Source of the DNA: Levilactobacillus brevis
GTDB taxonomy: Bacteria > Bacillota > Bacilli > Lactobacillales > Lactobacillaceae
NCBI GenBank assembly: GCA_021383565.1
Contig: CP079699.1
Location: 2,356,001 to 2,420,000, forward strand
Direction of reading: 5' to 3'
Length of the DNA stretch: 64,000 bases
Shown piece by piece: positions 46-58,458 of this stretch; within the stretch, counting starts at the first letter, position 1, and each line of letters begins with the position of its first letter. A program made the position numbers and the translations under genes. The notes beneath the pieces were generated by a model, which made no database searches, was not told the DNA's origin, and saw nothing but the letters and a program-made list of their open reading frames with translations.

Positions 46-230
46 TCGCCTGCGGCTGCCAGCAATTCCGCCTGCTGTGGGGACCGCCTGCAGCCAAAGA
101 ACTGGCTTCCGGCTCGCTTGGAAGCCTTGCACAAACCCGCAAGTCTCCCAAGTCGTCCCACGCTGTAACCTGGCTAAGAACGCCAGCTAACACCGTTGTC
201 ACGGCTGGCTCCATTACTGGCCTCCTCCGG
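46..230 (+). repeat. Structured intergenic repeat, copy 1 (domain A only)
   Basis: This non-coding stretch fills most of the first 364 bases. It matches the first half (domain A) of the repeats at 18682 and 23525: the head TCGCCTGCGGCTGCCAG, the block CCTGCTGTGGGGACCG, and the tail ACGGCTGGCTCCATTAC then CCTCCTCCGGC. The outer arms CCAGCAAT and ATTACTGG pair at 7 of 8 positions. An inner hairpin has arms CTGGC and GCCAG. No domain B follows before the transporter gene that ends at 365. I see no coding sequence here. Confidence 0.75.
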
Positions 231-364
231 CACAGTGGTTGCCATAAGTGATGGTGTTTGTCCGTGGCAGCAAGCATGACTAGTAGTCACCCACCGGCAA
301 TGCAAATCATCTTAATTGGCCGCTCATCCTACGCGACTGGCAGGGCGGCAGTAATGATCAAGCC

Positions 365-8469: not shown

Positions 8470-9320
8470 GGACTGTCTGAAAACTTAAAATTCAGGTACA
8501 ATCTGAGGAAAAACGAATCGAGGCATTCCGATGACAACACCTAAACGATACGAACTGGAAGATGCTCAGTGGGACCGAATCAAAGGATACTTCCCGCCAT
8601 ACCGGACTGGCCGTCCATCAAGCCTAGACAACCGTACCGCCCTCAACGCTATCCTCTGGCTCATGCGCAGCGGGGCTCCTTGGCGTGATCTACCTGAACG
8701 CTATGGCTCTTGGAAAACGGTGTATAGTCGCTTCCGAGCCTGGGTAAGTTCAGGCTTGTTCGAACAGGTTTTTCTCGAATTGATTGACGATCCCGACATG
8801 GAAAACTTGAGCTTAGATTCAACGATCGTTCGAGCGCATCAAAAGGCCACTGGGGCAAAAAAAACGCCGAATGTATGGTCGAAAATCAAGCTATTGGACT
8901 AAGTCGAGGTGGCCGAACGACCAAGATTCACGCACTCGTTGACGGATTAGGGAATCCCTTGGGTTTTCGCCTAACAGGTGGTCAAGTACATGATAGCCAA
9001 GTTGCCAGTGAGTTGCTGGAAGGCTTCGATATTTCTCAATCAAATATTATCGCGGACAAAGCCTATGGCACCGCGAAACTTCGCCAGTATATTGAAGATA
9101 AAGCAGGCGTCTATACCATTCCGCCAAAGGAAAATACCAAAGACAAGTGGACCTGTGATTACCACGTTTATTGTGAGCGCCATTTGATTGAGAACTTCTT
9201 TAATCAGTTGAAGAACTTTCGTAGGATTGCAACGCGTTATGATAAGCTCGCTCATGTTTATCTGGCTACGGTCTACATTGCCTCAATTTGCATCTTACTT
9301 AAGTAGTTTTCAGACGGACC
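8470..9320 (+). mobile_element. IS5-family insertion sequence (IS427-like), 851 bp
   Basis: The inverted repeats are GGACTGTCTGAAAAC on the left and GGTCCGTCTGAAAAC on the right (read inward). They are flanked by CTAG on both sides (8466-8469 and 9321-9324), consistent with the 4-bp YTAR-type duplication of IS5 elements. It carries one transposase in two overlapping frames. Length matches IS427-group elements. It sits in the leader between the 8341 promoter and the WxL gene. Confidence 0.9.
8531..9306 (+). CDS. IS5-family transposase, expressed by -1 frameshift
   Basis: The first frame (8531-8902) gives the N-terminal DUF4096-like part and the first catalytic Asp region (SLDSTIVRAHQ). The second frame (to 9306) gives GGRTTKIHALVDGLGNP, DKAYGT and the C-terminal ERHLIENFFNQLKNFR with the catalytic Glu. 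The frames overlap at a run of eight A residues (8856-8863). Slipping back one base there yields GAKKNAECMVENQAIG, the continuous family sequence, so a programmed -1 frameshift is likely rather than damage. Both halves look undamaged, so the element may be active. Confidence 0.88.
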
Positions 9321-11504: not shown

Positions 11505-12354
11505 GAACCTGTTTAAAATCTGGACAATTTGATATGATAGTTCAAAAAAGGATGATAACTTATGAACTACCCCAGCAATCCCTCACGGCACCAATTTGAA
11601 CTAATTCGGCCCGATTTAGAAGCAGCTCGGCAATCCACTAGGCCTCGCAAATATGACCTTTATGATTTATTTTGTGCTGTCGCGTATGTTTTAAAAACCG
11701 GTTGTCAATGGCGACAGTTACCGGCTGATTTTCCTAACTGGCAATCAGTCTATTACTACTATCGCGTATGGTCTGAGGAACAAATTATTGATGAACCTTC
11801 TATTTTGGATAAATGTTTAAAAAAATTATCTTTACCCTACGGGAAAAACAATCACGCTCGGCTAAAACATCTTTCATAATTATTGATGCCCAAAGCGTTA
11901 AAAATACCGATACGGCGGAGCATCACGGTTATGACGGTGGCAAACGTATATCTGGCATCAAACGGCACTTAGCTGTTGATATTAACGGCTTACCTCAAGC
12001 AATTCATATAACGACAGCTAATGTTTCGGATCGTGATGGGGCCAGTGCTATGTTAGCCCTCAACTATGATCATTTAAGACAAGTTAAGTCAGTTTTGGTA
12101 GATGGCGGCTACACAGGTTCCAATTTTGCAGCTGACGTTTACACTAATTTAAAAGCCACCGTGCAGGTGGCTAAACGCAATGAGCTTCATAAATTTGAAG
12201 TATTACCGCAACGCTGGATTATTGAACGATCTTTCAGTTGGTTAGATAAATGTCGCCGTCTCTGGAAAAATTGTGAACGTCAACTTAACACTAGTCGTCA
12301 AATGGTCATTTTAGCTTTTTTAGTATTGCTGCTCAAGAGATTTTAAACAGGTTC
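11505..12354 (+). mobile_element. IS5-family insertion sequence (ISL2/IS1031-like), 850 bp
   Basis: The perfect 16-bp inverted repeats GAACCTGTTTAAAATC lie at 11505-11520 and, inverted, at 12339-12354. The target duplication is TAA (11502-11504 and 12355-12357), a TNA-type target used by this IS5 subgroup. Excision in silico restores the host frame exactly. The repeats differ from those of the element at 8470, so these are two independent insertions. Confidence 0.95.
11562..12346 (+). CDS. IS5-family transposase in two frames
   Basis: The first frame (11562-11879) has the N-terminal region KYDLYDLFCAVAYVLKTGCQW. The second (11813-12346) has IIDAQSVKNTDTA with the first catalytic Asp, VDGGYTGSNF with the second, and WIIERSFSWLDKCRRLWKN with the catalytic Glu. 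The second frame is -1 relative to the first, and the overlap contains TTTAAAAAAATT near 11816, a plausible slippage site. A fused product by -1 frameshifting is therefore likely. RBS AAGGATGA precedes the ATG at 11562. Confidence 0.88.
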
Positions 12355-18534: not shown

Positions 18535-18681
18535 GACGGCATCCCTTCTTTCAGCTCAAGTATACCAAACTTCGGCGAAGAGGTCGGTTCCCAGACTTCC
18601 GCCGACTCAAAAAGGGCTGACAGCACGCTGCCAGCCCTTCGAAATCAAGTTTATTGAATACTTTAGCGATCACCTTACCAG

Positions 18682-19115
18682 TCGCCTACGGCTGCCAGGG
18701 ATTCCACCTGCTGTGGGGACCGGCAAGAGCCATGGGACGGTCTCTTGACTCGCCTTGAAGCCACGCCAGGACCGCGCGTCTCCAAGGTCGTCCAGTGCCA
18801 TAAGCTGGCTGAAGAACACCAGCTAACGCCACTTTCACGGCTGGCTCCATCCCTGGCCTCCTCCGGCTAAGGACAGATGGTACCAGCCAAAGACGTGTTG
18901 GACTAAACTTTTTGTTACTGTAACAGCTTAAAGCAGCCGTGAGTAAGCTAAATTTGGGCTCAGCCGGGGCATTCATAACTGGTGGTTTACCAGTTATGAA
19001 TGGGCGACTTGGAAATGCCGATCTGTGGCGGTTCCAAGCGAGTTTCGAGACCGTTCTTTGGCTCGAAACGTCCTTCCCCAGCGTTCCAGCCCAAATTTGG
19101 CGAACGGTAAGGCGG
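18682..19115 (+). repeat. Structured intergenic repeat, copy 2 (domains A and B)
   Basis: Domain A (18682-18872) has outer arms CCAGGGAT and ATCCCTGG and inner hairpins such as CAAGAG/CTCTTG and AGCTGG/CCAGCT. Domain B (18932-19115) has outer arms AAATTTGGGCT and AGCCCAAATTT, a perfect 13-bp hairpin CATTCATAACTGG/CCAGTTATGAATG, CTTGGAA/TTCCAAG and GTTTCGAG/CTCGAAAC. Both domains recur at 23525. It fills the gap between the hypothetical gene at 18040 and opuCD. No gene is seen within; short frames through it follow the hairpins and have no ribosome sites. Confidence 0.88.
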
Positions 19116-19144
19116 CTCTTAAGCAAGTGACGCGGGAAAGCCAG

Positions 19145-19807
19145 TTAGTTTTCCGAAGAAGTCTTGGGGGTCAAGCGCTTTTCGATAAAGGAAAGCACCA
19201 GATCAGTGATGATCGCCATCAGAGCCGTTGGTAACGCCCCGGCCAAGATGATGGCGCCTCCGTTCGTCGCGTTGGTCCCGCGGACGATGATATCGCCCAG
19301 ACCACCGGATCCGATGAAGGACCCAATCACGGTAATCCCAATGCCCAAGACTAGGGCGTTTCGAATTCCGGCGATAATCACGGATAGTGACAGCGGAATC
19401 CGAATGGTCTTCATGATTTGGAAACGGGTCATCCCCATCCCTTTACCGGCATCCAGCACGTCTTGGTCCACGCTCAACATCCCCGTGTAGGTGTTTTTCA
19501 CAATCGGGAGTAGTGAGTAGAGGAAGACGGTGGCGATAACGGTGTTTTGGCCGAGTCCCAGTCCCAGCATCAGGATGGACAGCATGGCCAGTGAGGGGAT
19601 GGTCTGGATAACGTTGGCAATCCCGATGATAATCGGCGAGAGCTTGCGGTTCTGCGAAATCCAAATTCCAATCGGAATCCCCACGATGGCGCCGAACAGC
19701 ACGCCATAGATTGAAACGAGGAACGTCTGGTTAAATTGACTGAGGACGTACATCCCGTTGTGTGAGAAGTAATACATCAGTTGCCCGAATAAGCCCATGT
19801 CTTTCAT
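19145..19807 (-). CDS. opuCD: Osmoprotectant ABC transporter permease OpuCD
   Basis: This 220-residue permease has about six helices and the BPD-type EAA loop (AGKGMGMTRFQIMKTIRIPLS) that contacts the ATPase. It is the last gene of opuCA-CB-CC-CD, which imports glycine betaine, carnitine or choline under osmotic stress. It begins 2 bases after the binding-protein gene. The structured repeat lies just downstream and may end the transcript. Confidence 0.92.
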   Translation of the reverse strand: MKDMGLFGQLMYYFSHNGMYVLSQFNQTFLVSIYGVLFGAIVGIPIGIWISQNRKLSPIIIGIANVIQTIPSLAMLSILMLGLGLGQNTVIATVFLYSLLPIVKNTYTGMLSVDQDVLDAGKGMGMTRFQIMKTIRIPLSLSVIIAGIRNALVLGIGITVIGSFIGSGGLGDIIVRGTNATNGGAIILAGALPTALMAIITDLVLSFIEKRLTPKTSSEN

Positions 19808-19809
19808 GC

Positions 19810-20739
19810 CTAGTTCCCCCCTTCAAAGTAGTGGTGTTGCTTCAAAAAGTCGTTGGCCACGGTTTGTGGTTCTTCCAGTTGGTCATCGACCTTATAGTTT
19901 AAGTTTTGCATAGTCTTCAATGAAATCTTGCCGGTCAACCGGTTCAAGACACCCTTCAATTCTGGGTGCTGTTTCAAGATGGCATCGGTGGCCACCGGAC
20001 TCCCATCGTATGGTGGGAAGAAGTTCCGGTCGTCCTTGAGGATCGTCAGATCATAGCTACCAACCCGGCCGTCGGTGGAATAGCCAAGGATGGCGTCCAT
20101 CTTACCGGCGGAGAGGGCATCGTAAAGTAAGCCGACCTGCATCGGGTAGACCGTACCAAAACTAAAGCCGTAATCCTTCTGGAAGGCGGGGTAACCGTCA
20201 CCCTGACGATTTTGCCAGATTTGGTCAATCCCAACGCGCATGTTCGGCGCTAATTTTTTCAGATCGCTGACCGTCTTCAGGTGGTGCTTCTTCGCGTAGC
20301 TCTTCTTGACCATCCAAGCGTAGGTATCGGCGAACCCGTAAGACTTGAAGTAAGTCATGTGGTAGCGATCCTTAAATTCATTGACGACGGTCTTATTAAC
20401 CTTGGCCGGATCCCGTTCGAACTTTTCGTTCAGGATGGTGGTCAAGTCGGTCCCGTTGAATCGAATGGAAGAAATGTCGGCGTTATCGTTCTTTAAGGCG
20501 TTAAAACTAACATTTCCGGAACCGAGGTTATTGACAATAGTTGAATCGAGGTTGGTGTAGTGGCTGATCATGCCTTGAATCATGTAGGCCATGATCTGCT
20601 GCTCGGTGGTGTTCTGCGAGGCAATCCGGACGGTATTGTTGCCGGAGCCACTCAGACCAGGTAAGCTACAGCCCCCGAGGGGTAAGAGTACGATGACTAA
20701 CAGAAGTCCGGCTAGCCATTGACGTAAATGTTTTCGCAT
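19810..20739 (-). CDS. opuCC: Osmoprotectant-binding lipoprotein OpuCC
   Basis: This 309-residue protein has a lipoprotein signal peptide with lipobox LGGC (Cys near residue 24), so it is anchored on the outer face of the membrane. The mature part is an OpuAC/ProX-type binding protein (IASQNTTEQQIMAYMIQGMI, YGFADTYAWMVK, LGYSTDGRVGSYDLTILKDD). It captures quaternary amines for the OpuCB/OpuCD channel. AGGAGG precedes the ATG. The gene is 10 bases after opuCB. Confidence 0.93.
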   Translation of the reverse strand: MRKHLRQWLAGLLLVIVLLPLGGCSLPGLSGSGNNTVRIASQNTTEQQIMAYMIQGMISHYTNLDSTIVNNLGSGNVSFNALKNDNADISSIRFNGTDLTTILNEKFERDPAKVNKTVVNEFKDRYHMTYFKSYGFADTYAWMVKKSYAKKHHLKTVSDLKKLAPNMRVGIDQIWQNRQGDGYPAFQKDYGFSFGTVYPMQVGLLYDALSAGKMDAILGYSTDGRVGSYDLTILKDDRNFFPPYDGSPVATDAILKQHPELKGVLNRLTGKISLKTMQNLNYKVDDQLEEPQTVANDFLKQHHYFEGGN

Positions 20740-20749
20740 GACGGACCTC

Positions 20750-21376
20750 CTATCGTAATTGCCGTGGTGTCACGGTGTTTTCCAATTTACCTAACAAATA
20801 GTCGACGAGTAGGGCCAACAAAATAACGGGAATCGACCCGCCCAGAATCAAGTCGGAGCGGTAGAGGTTCAAGCCGTTAAAGATAAAGTCACCCAAGCCA
20901 CCGGCCCCAATGTAGGAAGCCAGTGTGGCCCACGCGATGACGTAGGTCGCCGACAGCCGAATTCCAGACATGATAACCGGAGCGGCTAGGGGAATCTCGG
21001 CGCGCATCATGGATTGCCACCAGGTCATTCCCATCCCCTTAGCAGCGTCACGCACTGTGGGGGAGACCCCCTCCATCCCCAGGTAGGTGTTACGCAGGAT
21101 GGGGAGTAAGGAGTAGATGAACAAAGCGACAATGGCGGGTGTCGAGCCAATCCCAAAGATGGGAATCATCATGGCTAAAAGCGCCATGGCAGGGATAGTC
21201 TGTAGGACACCGGCCAGTGTGATAATGGCGTTGGCGCCACGTTTCATCCGCGTCAGGAGAATGCCTAAGGGCACGGCGACAATGATTCCTAAAGCCAAAG
21301 CGGCCGCAGAAATATAGAGATGTTGGCCGGTCTTATCGATCAGCTGCATCCCGTAGACTTGTAAGAAGTGAATCAT
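20750..21376 (-). CDS. opuCB: Osmoprotectant ABC transporter permease OpuCB
   Basis: This 208-residue permease is paralogous to OpuCD. Its EAA loop is [21 protein letters not shown] and it has five to six hydrophobic helices. Its start overlaps the end of opuCA by 4 bases, indicating translational coupling. It forms the membrane channel with OpuCD. Confidence 0.92.
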
Positions 21377-22578
21377 TGTGATGATTCGCCCCCTTCATGA
21401 GTTGCGGCAGCGTGAATATCTGCGTTGATTGGGGAAGCCGGCTCTTCATCGTTGGCTGGTGCGCCACGTAAGGCATCGTAAACAATATCAACCAATGCGG
21501 TTCTCGTGACGATCCCGACCAAGTGTTTCTTGGCGTCGACAACCGGAACGTTTTTAACCCCCTGTTTTAGAATCCGGTCAACGGTGTCCCCAATGAGGGC
21601 GTTGGCCTGAACGTAGAAGACTTCGTGGTTGGTGAACCGGCTGACCGGCGTCGTGGCGTCGGTGATTCGGTTAATATCATCCAAATCAACGTAGCCTTGG
21701 AGCACACCAGATTCGTCCGTAACCAGTAGCGTATCAACTCGCCGGTCATGCATCAGGTCGATGGCGTCGTCCAACGTCTTGTCTGGCGTGATAGCGGCTG
21801 GGTTCTTCAGCATAATCTGGCTGACGGAGAGAATGTTTGGTTGGGCTCTGATCAGCCGTTCCTCACCGATTAAGTTGGTGACGAATTCGTTGGCTGGATG
21901 CCGCAAGATATTTTCCGGCGTATCGACCTGCACCTGCTTGCCGTGGCTCATGATGACCACGCGCATCGAGAGGTGAAGGGCTTCGTCCATATCATGGGTT
22001 ACGAAGATAAAGGTCTTGCCCAAGTCTTCCTGTAAATGCTTGACCAAGTCCTGTAGCGATTCCCGCGTGATGGGGTCCAACGCCCCAAAGGGTTCATCCA
22101 TCAGAATGATTTCTTGGTCGGCGGCCAGGGCCCGAACGACCCCGATCCGTTGCTGTTGCCCACCGGAAAGTTCGCCGGGGTAACGCTTCAGCATTTCTTC
22201 TGGCAGTTGGGCCAGGTTGATCATCTTTTTAGCCTGCTCAGCCCGTTTTTCTTTAGACCAGCCGAGCAGTTTCGGTACGATTTCAATATTCTCTTGGATC
22301 GTCATATGCGGCATTAGCCCGATGTTTTGAATTACGTAGCCAATGGAGCGCCGGAGCTTGACGGGATCCATCTTGGAAATATCCTTGCCATCAATCTTGA
22401 TGGTTCCCGAGGTCTGGTGCAGCATGCGATTGATCATCCGCATGGTCGTGGTCTTCCCCGATCCAGACGTCCCGATAAAGGAGATAAATTCCCCGCGGTC
22501 GACTTGCAAGTTAAAGTCGTCAACGGCAACTTTACCATTGGGATATTCCTTACGTAGATGTTCCATTGAAAGTAGCAT
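21373..22578 (-). CDS. opuCA: Osmoprotectant ABC transporter ATPase OpuCA with CBS domains
   Basis: This 401-residue ATPase has Walker [11 protein letters not shown] near residue 36, signature LSGGQQQR, Walker [14 protein letters not shown], and two C-terminal CBS domains (about residues 250-370; [20 protein letters not shown] and [19 protein letters not shown]). In OpuA-type systems the CBS module senses ionic strength and gates transport. It is the first gene of the operon, with AGGAGG before the ATG and a clear promoter at 22726-22754. Confidence 0.95.
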
Positions 22579-22725
22579 AGATTAACCTCCTGTGTAGTGA
22601 TGTCACACTTCTGGAAAAACGCCAGAAATATAAAAGAACGATCGGCATGCCAAAGTGGCACACGCGAGGTGAAGCAACTTGGAATCCGGTCGTATTTGGT
22701 TAGGTGGGCACTTATGAATATAGCT

Positions 22726-22754
22726 ATTGTACACGAGTCTGACGCGTTTTCCAA
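22726..22754 (-). promoter_or_regulatory. SigA-type promoter of opuCABCD
   Basis: On the minus strand TTGGAA and TACAAT are 17 bases apart. The leader is about 140 bases and includes small hairpins such as TGCCA/TGGCA and CTGG/CCAG, of unknown role. Confidence 0.65.
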
Positions 22755-23024
22755 AAGATAACTATTGCGAGTGTTGATAATGGCCGGGTATGAAACAGCT
22801 TCCTTGCCTGTTAGAACACCGGAATAGCGCCGTTGGCCTTTTTTTCGGCCTTCCACCAATTAAAGCATAACATACCTAAAGTAGTTTTTAATAAGAAACG
22901 CCTTATTGAAAGCGAAAAAGTGATGATAATTATGGCCATTTTTTTGGCAAAAAAGGCTTGCCTTCGACCTACTCTAACCCCGTATAATCTTGATTATCAG
23001 TTAAAGTGAAAGGGAGTTACGAAC

Positions 23025-23498
23025 TTGAAAAGAATCTTAATTGCCGGCCCGTTAGACCCAACCAGTCAGGCGTTTGTCCGCCAACTCAGTGAGAATATGA
23101 CGCTTGATTTAACGGTTTATACCCCTAGCCAAGTAGTGCTGCCTGCCGATGTGACAGGCTTTACAGGTGAAACGATGGACGAGGGGGGTCTGAGCGCCGC
23201 CATGTTGGACCAAGACCTGGTCGTAGCCCTAGCGCCGACAATTCATTTGGTGGAGATAGTCAAGGCGGTAGTGACGGCGGCCCAAGCCGTGGCCGTGCCA
23301 CAGGTCATGGTGAGTCGTACCGACGATATTGACGACCTACCCCGTGAGGTGCGGACGGCCCAACAGCTCTTATTGCGGGCGGGGATGCCGACGGATTTGG
23401 TCGAGGGCTTCGGTAGCCTCAGTGCGCTCTTGGGCCTCGACGTGTTGCCAGCCCCGACAGCCGTCGATCCCCTATTCGACGCCCGCTTCGCTGGGTAA
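23025..23498 (+). CDS. Hypothetical protein with Rossmann-like start
   Basis: This 157-residue protein begins KRILIAGPLDPTSQAFVRQL, a beta-alpha start that resembles NAD(P)-binding NmrA-like proteins, but the glycine pattern is incomplete and the chain is short. The rest (MVSRTDDIDDLPREVRTAQQ, GFGSLSALLGLDVLP) gives no family I recognise. It starts at TTG with GGGAG 9 bases upstream. A TATAAT at 22983 suggests its own promoter, although the -35 (TTGCCT) is 19 bases away. The structured repeat follows the stop. Confidence 0.55.
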   Translation: MKRILIAGPLDPTSQAFVRQLSENMTLDLTVYTPSQVVLPADVTGFTGETMDEGGLSAAMLDQDLVVALAPTIHLVEIVKAVVTAAQAVAVPQVMVSRTDDIDDLPREVRTAQQLLLRAGMPTDLVEGFGSLSALLGLDVLPAPTAVDPLFDARFAG

Positions 23499-23524
23499 CA
23501 CTATTTCAGTTGAGCAGCAATGAT

Positions 23525-23981
23525 CGCCTACGGCTACCAGAAATTCCGCCTGCTGTGAGGACCGGTGAAAGCCACAGGGCGGTCTTTCACCTCGGTTTGG
23601 AGCCGAGGACCGCGTCTCCAAACACGTCCAGCGACGTAACCAGGCAATAGGATGCCTGGTTACGTCGCACTCACGGCTGGCTCCATTCCTGACCGACGGC
23701 TAAGGTTGTGGCGAATTTAAATCGTGTTGATCGCAGTGGGTTTGCCACTTAGTTTCGAATTGTTGTGGGAGCGGATTTAACTGGTGGTTGAACGAGACAC
23801 TAGCGTAGCCGCGAGTGAGCCAAATCTGGGCTCAGCCGGGGCAATGATGGCTGGGCTTGCCGTCATTGGGTACCTTGAAAACGCTGAACTGTGGCGGTTC
23901 CAAGTGAGTTTCGAGACCGTTTTTTGGCTCGAAACGTCCTTCCCCAGCGTTCCAGCCCAGATTTGGCGAACGGTAAGGCGA
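23525..23981 (+). repeat. Structured intergenic repeat, copy 3 (domains A and B)
   Basis: Domain A (23525-23705) has hairpins GGTGAAAG/CTTTCACC, GTTTGGAG/CTCCAAAC and a perfect 15-bp GCGACGTAACCAGGC/GCCTGGTTACGTCGC. Domain B (23804-23981) has outer arms CCAAATCTGGGCT and AGCCCAGATTTGG, which differ from copy 2 on both sides and keep pairing, then CAATGA/TCATTG and GTTTCGAG/CTCGAAAC. The ends TCGCCTACGG and CGGTAAGGCGA form imperfect inverted repeats. It lies between a plus-strand and a minus-strand gene. Confidence 0.88.
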
Positions 23982-24008
23982 CCAGTTCCCACAGTTGGTG
24001 ATAGCATA

Positions 24009-24039
24009 AACCGCCATCTACCGAGAGTAAATGGCGGTT
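24009..24039 (-). terminator. Terminator-like hairpin after the MFS gene
   Basis: On the minus strand AACCGCCAT and ATGGCGGTT form a 9-bp stem followed by TTTATG. The T-tract is short. Confidence 0.5.
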
Positions 24040-24071
24040 GTGATAGTCTATTTGGCAGCCGGAGGCGACGG

Positions 24072-25298
24072 TTAATGACTGGCTTGTCGTTGGCGAATTT
24101 CCGGGGCGAACCACCAGAGTAAAGCGAGGTTGATGAGCATGAGGATTGCCGTTGAGAAGAAGACGGCGTTGTAGTTGAAGATCCCCGCCAACCAGCCTCC
24201 AAGTAAGGCGCCCAGCATGTTGCCAATCGATTGAAACGATTGGTTCCAGCTGAAGACGGTTGAGGTCAGCGTGACCGGTGTGTTTTTGGTCAGGAGCGTC
24301 TGAATCTCGGGGAATAGAGCCCCGTCGGGAATCCCGATCATGAAGCGTAGAATCCCCAGCATCCAGACACTGGTGACGAAGCCTTGCGGAAAGTACATGA
24401 CAGTGGCAAAGATATAGCCGAAGAGCAGAACCCGTCCCGAGCCGTGATGGTCGCCGTAACGGCCCAGTCGTGGTGCAGCGATGATATTAGAGATGCCCGG
24501 TAGCGCGGCCAGAATCCCAGCGACCACGGTAATTGGCCCAACGTTGTGCATGAGTTCCTTGACATACAGACTGATGATGGGCGAGATGGACGTGTTGCCA
24601 AATTGAACGAACATGGTCGAGCACAGCAAGATGATAATCAATTTTAAATTGGGAACAGCCGCCAGACGATTCGGACGTTTGGCGGTTTTTGATTGGCGTG
24701 GCACCGGTTTGAAGTTCTCCTTGACCAGCACCCAGCTGAGTACGAAGGTAATCAGGAGTAGGCTGGCGGTCACGAAGAAGGTCATGCGAATCGAAAAGAT
24801 CTGGGCCAACACCCCACCGATGATGGGGCCGAGCAGATTGCCACTGGTCCCACCGGTCGTCAGGGTTCCCAACGCCGCTCCCGAGTATTTTCGCGGCGTC
24901 TGGGCGGCAATCAAGGCCTGTGCGTTGGGAATGTAGCCGGCAAAGACGCCTTGTAGGGAGCGCAGGGCGACCAATTGCCAAACGTTGGTGGCGAGGCCCA
25001 TGAGGCCCATTGCCACGGCAATTCCGAGCGAGGTTCGAAGGAGCATGAGCTTGCGGCCCTTGCGATCGGCGACCATGCCCCATAGTGGCGCGGCGATGGC
25101 CCCCACGAAGAAGTCGGCGGCGTACACCAAGCCACTGTACATGGTCACCTGTGCCTTGGTGTACGTCCCCAGGCTACTGACATATAACGACAGAAAGGGC
25201 ATGATCTCACTGAACGCCATGCCTACAATAAACGAACAGAACCACAGAATGTGGAGGTTCCGCCGCCAGAGATCATTATTCTCCTCGGCTTCATCCAC
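24072..25298 (-). CDS. MFS multidrug efflux protein (first of a tandem pair)
   Basis: This 408-residue, 12-helix MFS protein has motif A GMVADRKGRKLMLLRT after helix 2 and the motif C-like segment TGGTSGNLLGPIIGG in helix 5, as in proton-driven drug/H+ antiporters (MdtG/PmrA-like). It starts at GTG with AAGGAG upstream. It is highly similar along its whole length to the neighbour at 25467; even the start region MDEAE..R..WRRNL is shared, so the pair arose by tandem duplication. It has its own promoter, which lies inside an inverted repeat. Substrate unknown. Confidence 0.88.
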   Translation of the reverse strand: MDEAEENNDLWRRNLHILWFCSFIVGMAFSEIMPFLSLYVSSLGTYTKAQVTMYSGLVYAADFFVGAIAAPLWGMVADRKGRKLMLLRTSLGIAVAMGLMGLATNVWQLVALRSLQGVFAGYIPNAQALIAAQTPRKYSGAALGTLTTGGTSGNLLGPIIGGVLAQIFSIRMTFFVTASLLLITFVLSWVLVKENFKPVPRQSKTAKRPNRLAAVPNLKLIIILLCSTMFVQFGNTSISPIISLYVKELMHNVGPITVVAGILAALPGISNIIAAPRLGRYGDHHGSGRVLLFGYIFATVMYFPQGFVTSVWMLGILRFMIGIPDGALFPEIQTLLTKNTPVTLTSTVFSWNQSFQSIGNMLGALLGGWLAGIFNYNAVFFSTAILMLINLALLWWFAPEIRQRQASH

Positions 25299-37716: not shown

Positions 37717-37746
37717 CGCCTAGGGCAGGCAAGAAAATGTAGCTGT

Positions 37747-37881
37747 CCGCCTTGCCGCTCACCAAATTTGGGCTGGAATGCTGGGAAGCCATGTTTTCGG
37801 TTTCCCAGCGAGAGAAAAGACCGCTTCTTCAGGCTTTTCTCGTCTCCCACGGCAGGTGGAATCCCTGGCAACCGCAAGCGA
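37747..37881 (-). repeat. Structured intergenic repeat, copy 4 (compact A/B fusion)
   Basis: Read on the minus strand it has the domain A head (TCGCTTGCGGTTGCCAG, GATTCCACCTGC), the first hairpin with new arms GAGAAAAG/CTTTTCTC, a second hairpin CTGGGAA/TTCCCAG, and the domain B tail (TTCCAGCCCAAATTTGG, GGCAAGGCGG). The middle of the full unit is absent. The ends are imperfect inverted repeats. It lies just after the secreted-protein gene. Confidence 0.8.
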
Positions 37882-53545: not shown

Positions 53546-53663
53546 TGGATTACCGGCAGAGAGATTATTAAACCTTACACTAAAGGCTGAAGGTACGAAA
53601 ATGGGCCTCAGCCCTTGGGAGACTTGGACTGAAGCTAATAAATATAGTCATTTGGCATCATTG

Positions 53664-53708
53664 AGCCTTGCCTAATGGTCTGACCAGATTATTAGGCAAG
53701 GCTTTTAT
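53664..53708 (+). terminator. Intrinsic terminator
   Basis: AGCCTTGCCTAAT and ATTAGGCAAGGCT (with an extra ATT in the loop) form a 13-bp stem followed by TTTTAT. It lies in the 315-base gap 53546-53860; apart from this and the hairpin at 53787 I see nothing there. Confidence 0.8.
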
Positions 53709-53786
53709 AAATTCATCGAAAACAGCTTGTATATTGGTTTTAGACGACTCAATTATACTCGTGGAGCAAGCCATGTCTATTTTTGT

Positions 53787-53816
53787 ACAGTAAAAGCCCG
53801 GCGTACCGGGCTTTTA
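53787..53816 (-). terminator. Bidirectional terminator after the M23 gene
   Basis: GTAAAAGCCCGG and CCGGGCTTTTAC form a near-perfect palindrome with T-runs in both directions. Confidence 0.8.
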
Positions 53817-53860
53817 CTGTGCTTTTAACTTTCAACTTTTAGAAATTCATGTAGCGTGCA

Positions 53861-57751: not shown

Positions 57752-58333
57752 ATGACAGATAGACGAGTTGTACGAACTAAGCAGGCGCTACGAGCAGCCT
57801 TTAGAAAGTTGGCCCAGCAGTATCGGTATCATGAAATCACGGTCCAACAGCTGACCGATGAGGCCAATATCAATCGCAAGACATTTTACTTACATTTCGA
57901 CTCGATCGATGACCTGGCAGAAAGTTTTACCACGGAAATTGCGGACCAAATTTTGGCGTTGTTGCTAAAGGCGCCGGCTGACCGTGAGCCGATCGAACAC
58001 CCCGGTATCTGGGCGCAACGGTTAGGCGAGTTCTTTGAAGAGGCGCCGGCCTTCTACACGTTCATCCTGACGTCAGACGACTATAGCTTCCTATCGCGAC
58101 GGGTCAAAAATATAGTGGCTGCAGGGATGGCCGCAGACTTCCAGCGAGATTATCATCTCAGTGCGACCGACGCTAAAATTGGTGTGAACTTTCTGATCGA
58201 CAGCACACTGACGCTGTTTCGCCTGTACGTGACGAAACAGATCGACCTGACAAAGCCAGCTCTTCGCCAACGCTTGGTGGCGTTGAATTTGTCGGGGATG
58301 CAGGGATTCTTGGCGTTGACAAAGCAAAAGTAA
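57752..58333 (+). CDS. TetR-family regulator
   Basis: This 193-residue protein has a TetR N-terminal DNA-binding domain (VVRTKQALRAAFRKLAQQYRYHEITVQQLTDEANINRKTFYLHF) and a C-terminal ligand domain of the DhaS/TetR_C type. The ATG at 57752 with GGGAGGGA upstream is used. It is divergent from the YhgE/Pip gene, a common pairing; repression of that gene is the likely role. Confidence 0.9.
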   Translation: MTDRRVVRTKQALRAAFRKLAQQYRYHEITVQQLTDEANINRKTFYLHFDSIDDLAESFTTEIADQILALLLKAPADREPIEHPGIWAQRLGEFFEEAPAFYTFILTSDDYSFLSRRVKNIVAAGMAADFQRDYHLSATDAKIGVNFLIDSTLTLFRLYVTKQIDLTKPALRQRLVALNLSGMQGFLALTKQK

Positions 58334-58389
58334 AACTCACTAGCGACTCTCAATGGAGGGGGCTAATGAGTTTTGCCAGGCTTCAAACA

Positions 58390-58458
58390 GAGCCGGAGGA
58401 CAGCTTCACAGGCCGCAGGCGGTTCCCACAGCGCCGGAATCTCTGGCAGCCGCAGGTG
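58390..58458 (-). repeat. Structured intergenic repeat, copy 5 (short domain A remnant)
   Basis: Read on the minus strand it begins CCACCTGCGGCTGCCAG and continues GATTCCGGCGCTGTGGGAACC and GCCTGCGGCC, matching the domain A head, especially copy 1, and ends in TCCTCCGGCTC like the domain A tail. The interior is deleted. It lies between the TetR gene and a terminator. Confidence 0.7.

Follow-up and report, generated by a model that had tools for sequence, protein, structure and literature searches.

Between positions 18,682 and 19,115 of a 64,000-bp stretch of Levilactobacillus brevis DNA (contig CP079699.1, positions 2,356,001 to 2,420,000; hereafter the window) lies a two-part intergenic repeat in which both arms of the same hairpins differ from copy to copy while remaining complementary, and the question raised by this locus is what such a repeat is and whether its fold is put to use. 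A first-pass annotation, made from the sequence alone, had placed the repeat at five places in the window, assigned it two domains (A and B), inferred selection on structure and left three options: an RNA, a protein-bound DNA fold or a mobile element acting as a folded single strand. All five places could be confirmed with a covariance-model scan and with profiles, and the helix arms quoted in that annotation match the sequence as printed.

The covariance model (R1) gave seven matches in the window, with E-values from 5.9e-47 to 5.4e-08, and none outside these five places. The noted pair consists of an A unit at 18684-18868, with its outward (sense) strand on the minus strand (185.5 bits, E 2.8e-44), and a B unit at 18935-19112, outward (sense) on the plus strand (69 bits, E 1.2e-15), and by the R1 coordinates the two 5' ends are separated by a spacer at 18869-18934. 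The second full pair is built from an A unit at 23526-23701 (minus strand; 152.6 bits, E 3.4e-36) and a B unit at 23807-23979 (plus strand; 52.6 bits, E 1.2e-11), with its spacer, from the same source, at 23702-23806, while a single A unit is found at 48-232 (minus strand; 196.4 bits, E 5.9e-47). A compact fusion at 37747-37880 (plus strand; 39.3 bits) matches B profile positions 2-42 and A profile positions 1-88 in inverted order, and represents a pair that has lost its middle, so that the outer portion of a B unit abuts that of an A unit. Finally, a remnant of the outer 3' part of an A unit is present at 58363-58456 (plus strand; A profile positions 3-96; 37.7 bits). The R1 calls for the fusion (37717-37879, plus strand) and the remnant (58278-58457, plus strand) differ from these limits, to which the genuine similarity is confined. 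Two minus-strand open frames of 146 aa (18686-19126) and 149 aa (23777-24226) cross or overlap the full pairs, and no Pfam family was matched by either. Transposase domains (PF01609) at 8914-9279 and 11864-12331 of the window probably belong to insertion sequences of other kinds.

R1 was built from Levilactobacillus A units alone, yet it detects both full B units of the window. A aligns with the reverse complement of B, and profiles of either detect the other. The element thus consists of a single unit type present twice in inverted orientation, not of two unrelated domains, and the first-pass distinction between A and B must be amended accordingly. Two inverted units of ~180 nt flank a spacer of about 80 bp, towards which their 5' (sense) ends point. 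The 2.68 Mb genome from which the window derives (the source genome) contains at least 50 BLAST matches (40 of 148 candidates scored) and at least 130 covariance-model matches at E<=1e-5 (150 of 769 candidates scored), the latter obtained in the genome-wide collection which had been proposed as a check of the repeat; the density is about 50 copies per Mb. Outward orientation was observed in 42 of the 43 neighbouring unit pairs less than 400 bp apart in this genome, and the spacer measures 62-105 bp in 38 of the 42 outward pairs. At loci fetched from many species, 114/119 pairs within 600 bp face outward (90 A/B, 23 A/A and one B/B), as do 12/13 close pairs in other genera, as read from the unit table. 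Some A/A pairs with wider spacers contain a terminator-like spacer hairpin, with strong mid-spacer examples in L120 (277-552), L189 (3026-3380) and L039 (1176-1503).

The family extends well beyond the source genome. A BLAST comparison with the window pair recovered it from 14 of 18 genomes of the genus (source included) and from none of 12 genomes of other families. Using R1, matches were found in 31 of 151 family genomes and nine of 40 genera, with 25 of these genomes falling in eight other genera; the matches listed outside the genus are full-length, with E-values down to 2e-31. The window pair itself had no BLAST match among plasmid or phage records. Among the queries made with other-genus pairs, two had no match among plasmids and a fourth had none among phages, while the third gave partial matches of 73 % on five plasmids of Pediococcus damnosus and Loigolactobacillus backii, which carry a relative of the other-genus unit without an annotated feature at that place. 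No constant gene companion of the units was seen, the 476 neighbouring proteins falling into 336 clusters, the largest of ten.

The units share one conserved, multi-branched secondary structure, in which an 11-pair closing stem is followed by an 8-pair inner stem containing single mismatches, a 12-pair tall hairpin, and a second junction, where a 4-pair stem encloses two further hairpins. The 50-pair model was evaluated on an alignment of 85 A units, the four lowest-scoring of the 89 near-full ones available at that stage having been excluded; the last hairpin aligns poorly and contributes one pair only. Standard pairs fill 96.4 % of cells, against 84.8 % in shuffled alignments and 34-40 % when one side of the helices is slid. 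Cells changed on both sides number 475 versus 116 in the shuffles, none of the 500 shuffles reaches the observed value on this or any other of five measures, and 35 of the 50 pairs covary, with changes on both sides. At one junction A-U pair, both bases are absent together in 29 sequences, while one alone is absent in a single sequence for each side. Across 41 distinct units from other genera, in an alignment fitted to the model, 46/50 pairs show changes on both sides, including all 11 pairs of the closing stem. Covariation beyond shuffled and slid controls, one criterion for a functional RNA, is therefore met. The paired changes reported at first pass are not due to chance, and the selection on structure inferred from them is supported by strong covariation both within the genus and across genera. 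A pseudoknot (GACCG/CGGTC) considered for the second hairpin was dropped, many copies being without the motif. Rfam gave no match in the window at the gathering score, and at E<=5 only four chance-level matches within 18600-24050. The statement that no named family has this sequence holds for the libraries searched, and the Rfam match that would have refuted it was not found.

Copies with intact ends are miniature inverted-repeat transposable elements (MITEs), mostly of 490-650 bp (complete ones about 590-650 bp), with the terminal repeats ACTAAAGGTTGAAAG. Five pairs in the source genome stay alike well beyond the units and share end points resembling this repeat, and direct repeats flank three of the five (L024, L030 and L065); elements in other species are bounded by ends of the same type. 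At no more than one mismatch, the terminal repeat has 44 matches in the source genome versus one for the reversed control, and 92 versus four in genome G030. Target duplication was evaluated in two genomes, in which the elements were selected by their terminal repeats. In genome G035, where 20 regions were fetched and 12 had two ends, exact direct repeats of 5-7 bp flank all ten elements with a perfect repeat at both ends, while the two elements with imperfect ends lack an exact 5-bp direct repeat. In G030, direct repeats were identified by eye at 11 of 16 short elements with at most one mismatch per end, a tally which excludes three further short end-pairs within long regions. A fusion of the kind present in the window recurs in two G030 elements, of which L333 has a clear direct repeat and L334 does not.

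These signatures are largely confined to the copies with intact ends. Most older pairs are without the terminal repeats, direct repeats at 90 such pairs are not in excess over shuffled flanks, and no clean empty site was found among 35 candidates, of which seven could be aligned. Across 35 genomes of the genus, the terminal repeat has at least nine matches in 16, one to three (about the control level) in 12 and none at one mismatch in seven (G004, G006, G013, G015, G034, G042 and G044). One of the latter, G015, has six weak structure matches. In five genomes (G001, G007, G008, G009 and G012) there are 25-29 BLAST matches to the pair but only 0-3 to the terminal repeat, and another or an extinct route must therefore be allowed for copy-rich species without these ends. 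In other genera the ends were recognised in one of 12 pairs tested, and that pair (L443) also has a direct repeat.

A candidate for the source of the transposase is encoded in G035. There, L407 is an intact 1561-bp element with the same terminal repeats, a 450-aa transposase and the direct repeat TGATTA. The transposase matches the NCBIfam model NF049925 'IS4 family transposase' with 470 bits (cut-off 250). L407 contains no A/B unit, and the A/B core has no counterpart there, so that the intact-end A/B element can be described as a MITE of an IS4-family transposon with which it shares only its ends. The frames of the complete A/B elements L367 and L368 do not exceed 131 aa (the families of these frames were unsearched). 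The criteria for a MITE, comprising terminal inverted repeats, target duplication, absence of a transposase gene and a same-ended autonomous partner in the same genome (G035), are all met. Insertion sequences (ISs) can mobilise related MITEs (PMC10969869), and it is likely that an L407-type element provides the transposase of the A/B MITE; mobilisation in trans is inferred, without experimental support. A different MITE, without any A/B match, lies at 53579-53843 of the window and has both ends of L407 joined (75.9 % identity over 145 bp and 87.5 % over 120 bp), with terminal repeats recognised by pattern. It is an internal-deletion MITE of the L407 IS from which the middle is gone. A terminator-like hairpin lies near its right end. 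In the source genome, none of the transposase loci fetched has both ends within three mismatches of the terminal repeat. An autonomous element was also sought in long A-A gaps, between far-apart ends in G030 and at 30 terminal-repeat loci, where only ordinary genes were found. PF13612 was searched because the ends seemed to resemble those of IS982, but the partner proved to be of the IS4 family. At L291 (1-101), at a contig edge, an IS end, which looks to be of ISL3 type, lies 24 bp inside the terminal repeat of an A/B-type element.

The fold might on this evidence serve only the spreading of the element, for example by binding a transposase or host factor, with resident copies being no more than decaying relics. 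Intact-end copies are clear transposons, and internal-deletion forms and remnants are common, both of which favour this explanation. Against it, the G030 elements L336 and L337, which have only a B unit, and the strongly truncated L333 are still flanked by direct repeats, and the IS itself has no unit; the pair is thus not needed for movement. Resident copies provide the second objection. Gene queries for the flanks of the two full pairs each matched 33 of 35 genomes, and units are present at 19 of 30 orthologous loci for the flank beside 19145 and at 17 of 30 for that beside 23498 (source included in both). The unit types, their orientation and the remnants differ between species at these orthologous sites. 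In G017, for instance, an A unit (L231, 1299-1483) is 88 % identical to window 18684-18868, and sits across the site in opposite orientation, next to what remains of an old pair.

Where A copies occupy the same site in different genomes, changes could be compared in place. Units at least 80 % identical gave 22 comparisons, two of which overlapped and were excluded, leaving 20 (some sharing a sequence), and the neutral expectation assumes 60 % transitions. Double changes which keep a pair number 29 versus 2.9 expected, and single changes which break one number 16 versus 74.3; double changes which break pairs are also above expectation (9 versus 3.1). A looser count of 26 comparisons (80 versus 11 and 26 versus 140, respectively) included the source copy of one site up to three times as well as low-identity sites, and the 20-comparison count is preferred. 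The excess of pair-keeping and deficit of pair-breaking changes indicates that the structure is kept where it sits. Unless conversion is responsible, this counts against a fold that serves spreading alone, and that explanation is considered unlikely.

The condition attached to this conclusion is itself a rival explanation, namely that ectopic gene conversion and template-switch correction within hairpins keep the arms complementary by mutation mechanisms rather than selection. Hairpin-templated repair is a generally known mechanism. In its favour, five double changes between L236 and L237 fall in one hairpin block, the G017 unit described above resembles the source A unit at the same locus in opposite orientation, and the copy number is large. 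Five of the 29 pair-keeping double changes lie in long-range stems, with the remainder in local hairpins, and it is possible that those in local hairpins stem from conversion tracts or hairpin-templated repair. However, pairs ~160 nt apart covary in place among those five, all 11 closing-stem pairs covary across genera, and the strand bias in wobble pairs set out below would not be expected from such mechanisms. They are thus unlikely to account for the pattern as a whole. Selection on a resident RNA is the simplest reading of the in-place changes, to which conversion or hairpin repair may contribute.

Wobble pairs offer a means of distinguishing RNA from DNA, as a G·U pair aids an RNA on one strand only and the opposite strand reads A·C at that position. 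Counted first on 89 A and 68 B units, the wobble pairs pointed to the sense strand for A but left B undecided: the B units had 103 G·U versus 27 A·C among sense-predicted pairs and 74 versus 142 among antisense-predicted pairs. To limit bias, a second count was made on enlarged sets cleared of near-duplicates, and was restricted to pairs that were predicted from the antisense strand and were Watson-Crick in at least 60 % of cases. Sense-strand G·U outnumbers A·C by 321 to 138 in A (n=180; 36 pairs richer in G·U versus 14 richer in A·C) and by 99 to 31 in B (n=75; 18 pairs versus 11). In other genera, the outward strand has 97 G·U versus 28 A·C in a model-fitted alignment. Strand-specific wobble, a further criterion for a functional RNA, is met despite the undecided result for the earlier, smaller B set. 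A strand-biased mutation process could possibly add to the bias. As the sense strand is the outward one in both units, either DNA strand holds one sense and one antisense unit, which fits an RNA better than a single folded DNA strand.

This arrangement bears on the third rival, in which the pair is a protein-bound DNA structure (cruciform or folded single strand) comparable to REP/REPIN sequences with RAYT. REPINs are generally known as inverted pairs of REPs, and are associated with the RAYT transposase. The head-to-head pairs and single units of the A/B family resemble REPINs, as do the many copies and intergenic location, and both strands fold well. In contrast, REPs are 20-40 bp long (PMC3733652), while A/B units are several times longer and no Y1 transposase shows a matching pattern. 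The distribution of the Y1 transposase domain (PF01797) does not follow that of the repeats: 23 of the 35 genus genomes have it, and the 12 without it include the copy-rich G002, G012 and G016. A REPIN/RAYT identity was rejected. The wobble bias, which changes strand between the two halves of the element, likewise speaks against this rival, which is regarded as very unlikely. Because Y1 does not track the repeats and terminal inverted and direct repeats are present, the mobility is unlike that of an element moving as a folded single strand. The three options of the first-pass annotation can therefore be narrowed: RNA is favoured on the basis of the wobble strand bias in both units, and the mobility is MITE-like instead. 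That the structure works as an RNA is likely; it is an inference made without transcript data.

The genomic setting was surveyed using gene calls from a simple longest-frame caller. The 238 elements with both neighbours near occupy 76 convergent, 137 co-directional and 25 divergent gaps, versus 59, 166 and 113, respectively, for element-free intergenic gaps of at least 50 bp. The elements avoid divergent, promoter-bearing gaps. No convincing promoter was found in the spacers, although the consensus alignment used there was patchy. For 163 genes facing an element, a terminator-like site lies beyond the element in 28 cases, between gene and element in 50 and inside the pair in 47, so that many units may be outside stable mRNA and only part of them can be expected in stable transcripts. 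A position always between stop codon and terminator, true by eye at three places in the window, fails in this general survey. Single units are not biased towards the sense orientation where the neighbouring genes are co-directional (27 sense, 35 antisense), and between convergent genes they are mostly antisense to the nearer gene (25 versus 7).

The main reading, held with a probability of about 0.6, is of a structured RNA located in transcript ends and spread by a MITE; its function is unproven and transcript data are lacking. The IS4 transposase would, by inference, move the non-autonomous A/B MITE in trans. Since the two units are inverted, any transcript crossing the element, from either side, would carry one sense unit. 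Once folded in the untranslated end of a transcript, this unit may act on the RNA of which it forms part, candidate acts being the blocking of nucleases, the guiding of processing and the binding of a host protein. The host would tolerate or use the folded unit, which under this proposal is why resident copies keep their base pairs. The components of the reading differ in their support: the structure is well supported, as is mobility for the intact-end copies, an RNA nature is probable, and the job performed is unknown.

Known systems share parts of this design, and the comparisons with BOX and bcr repeats concern layout only, with no sequence relation implied. BOX elements of Streptococcus pneumoniae and S. 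suis are also modular intergenic repeats with predicted stem-loop RNA and composite forms (PMC3049150). Most of their modules are short (about 50 nt for boxA and boxC; 115 and 133 nt for the boxE and boxF modules of S. suis), and the order is fixed (PMC3049150), whereas the A/B element has two homologous, multibranched, outward units of ~180 nt. The bcr repeats of the Bacillus cereus group are similarly interspersed, MITE-like, structured and often located in UTRs, and bcr10 and bcr18 are predicted functional RNAs (PMC3446304, PMC2267715). However, bcr1 is a single module of 147-167 bp (PMC3446304, PMC2267715), in contrast to an inverted pair in ~620 bp with IS4-type ends. IS4-family ISs (NF049925) and their internal-deletion MITEs share with the A/B element both the terminal repeat and the direct repeat, but L407 has no counterpart of its core. 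The A/B family is undescribed in the open-access literature searched (bearing sections of PMC10969869, PMC3446304, PMC3049150 and PMC2267715).

The repeat can be described as a new MITE family that carries two large, structured, RNA-like units facing outward as a pair. A bolder reading is that it constitutes a new class of functional RNA in at least nine Lactobacillaceae genera, spread by a MITE to the transcript ends of the host and domesticated there, giving dozens of host genes a direction-independent RNA control module; the balance of the evidence at present falls short of favouring this. Bacterial MITEs often fold, and it is difficult to establish whether the fold is still relevant once the element has inserted. 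For this family, copies at one and the same site in several species lend themselves to comparison, and the pairs kept there argue either that the RNA acts in place or that conversion keeps the fold. The family would widen the known range of MITEs by a design that is composite and direction-independent, and a multibranched structure of 180 nt without an Rfam match, found in several genera of lactic acid bacteria, represents a clear target for RNA study.
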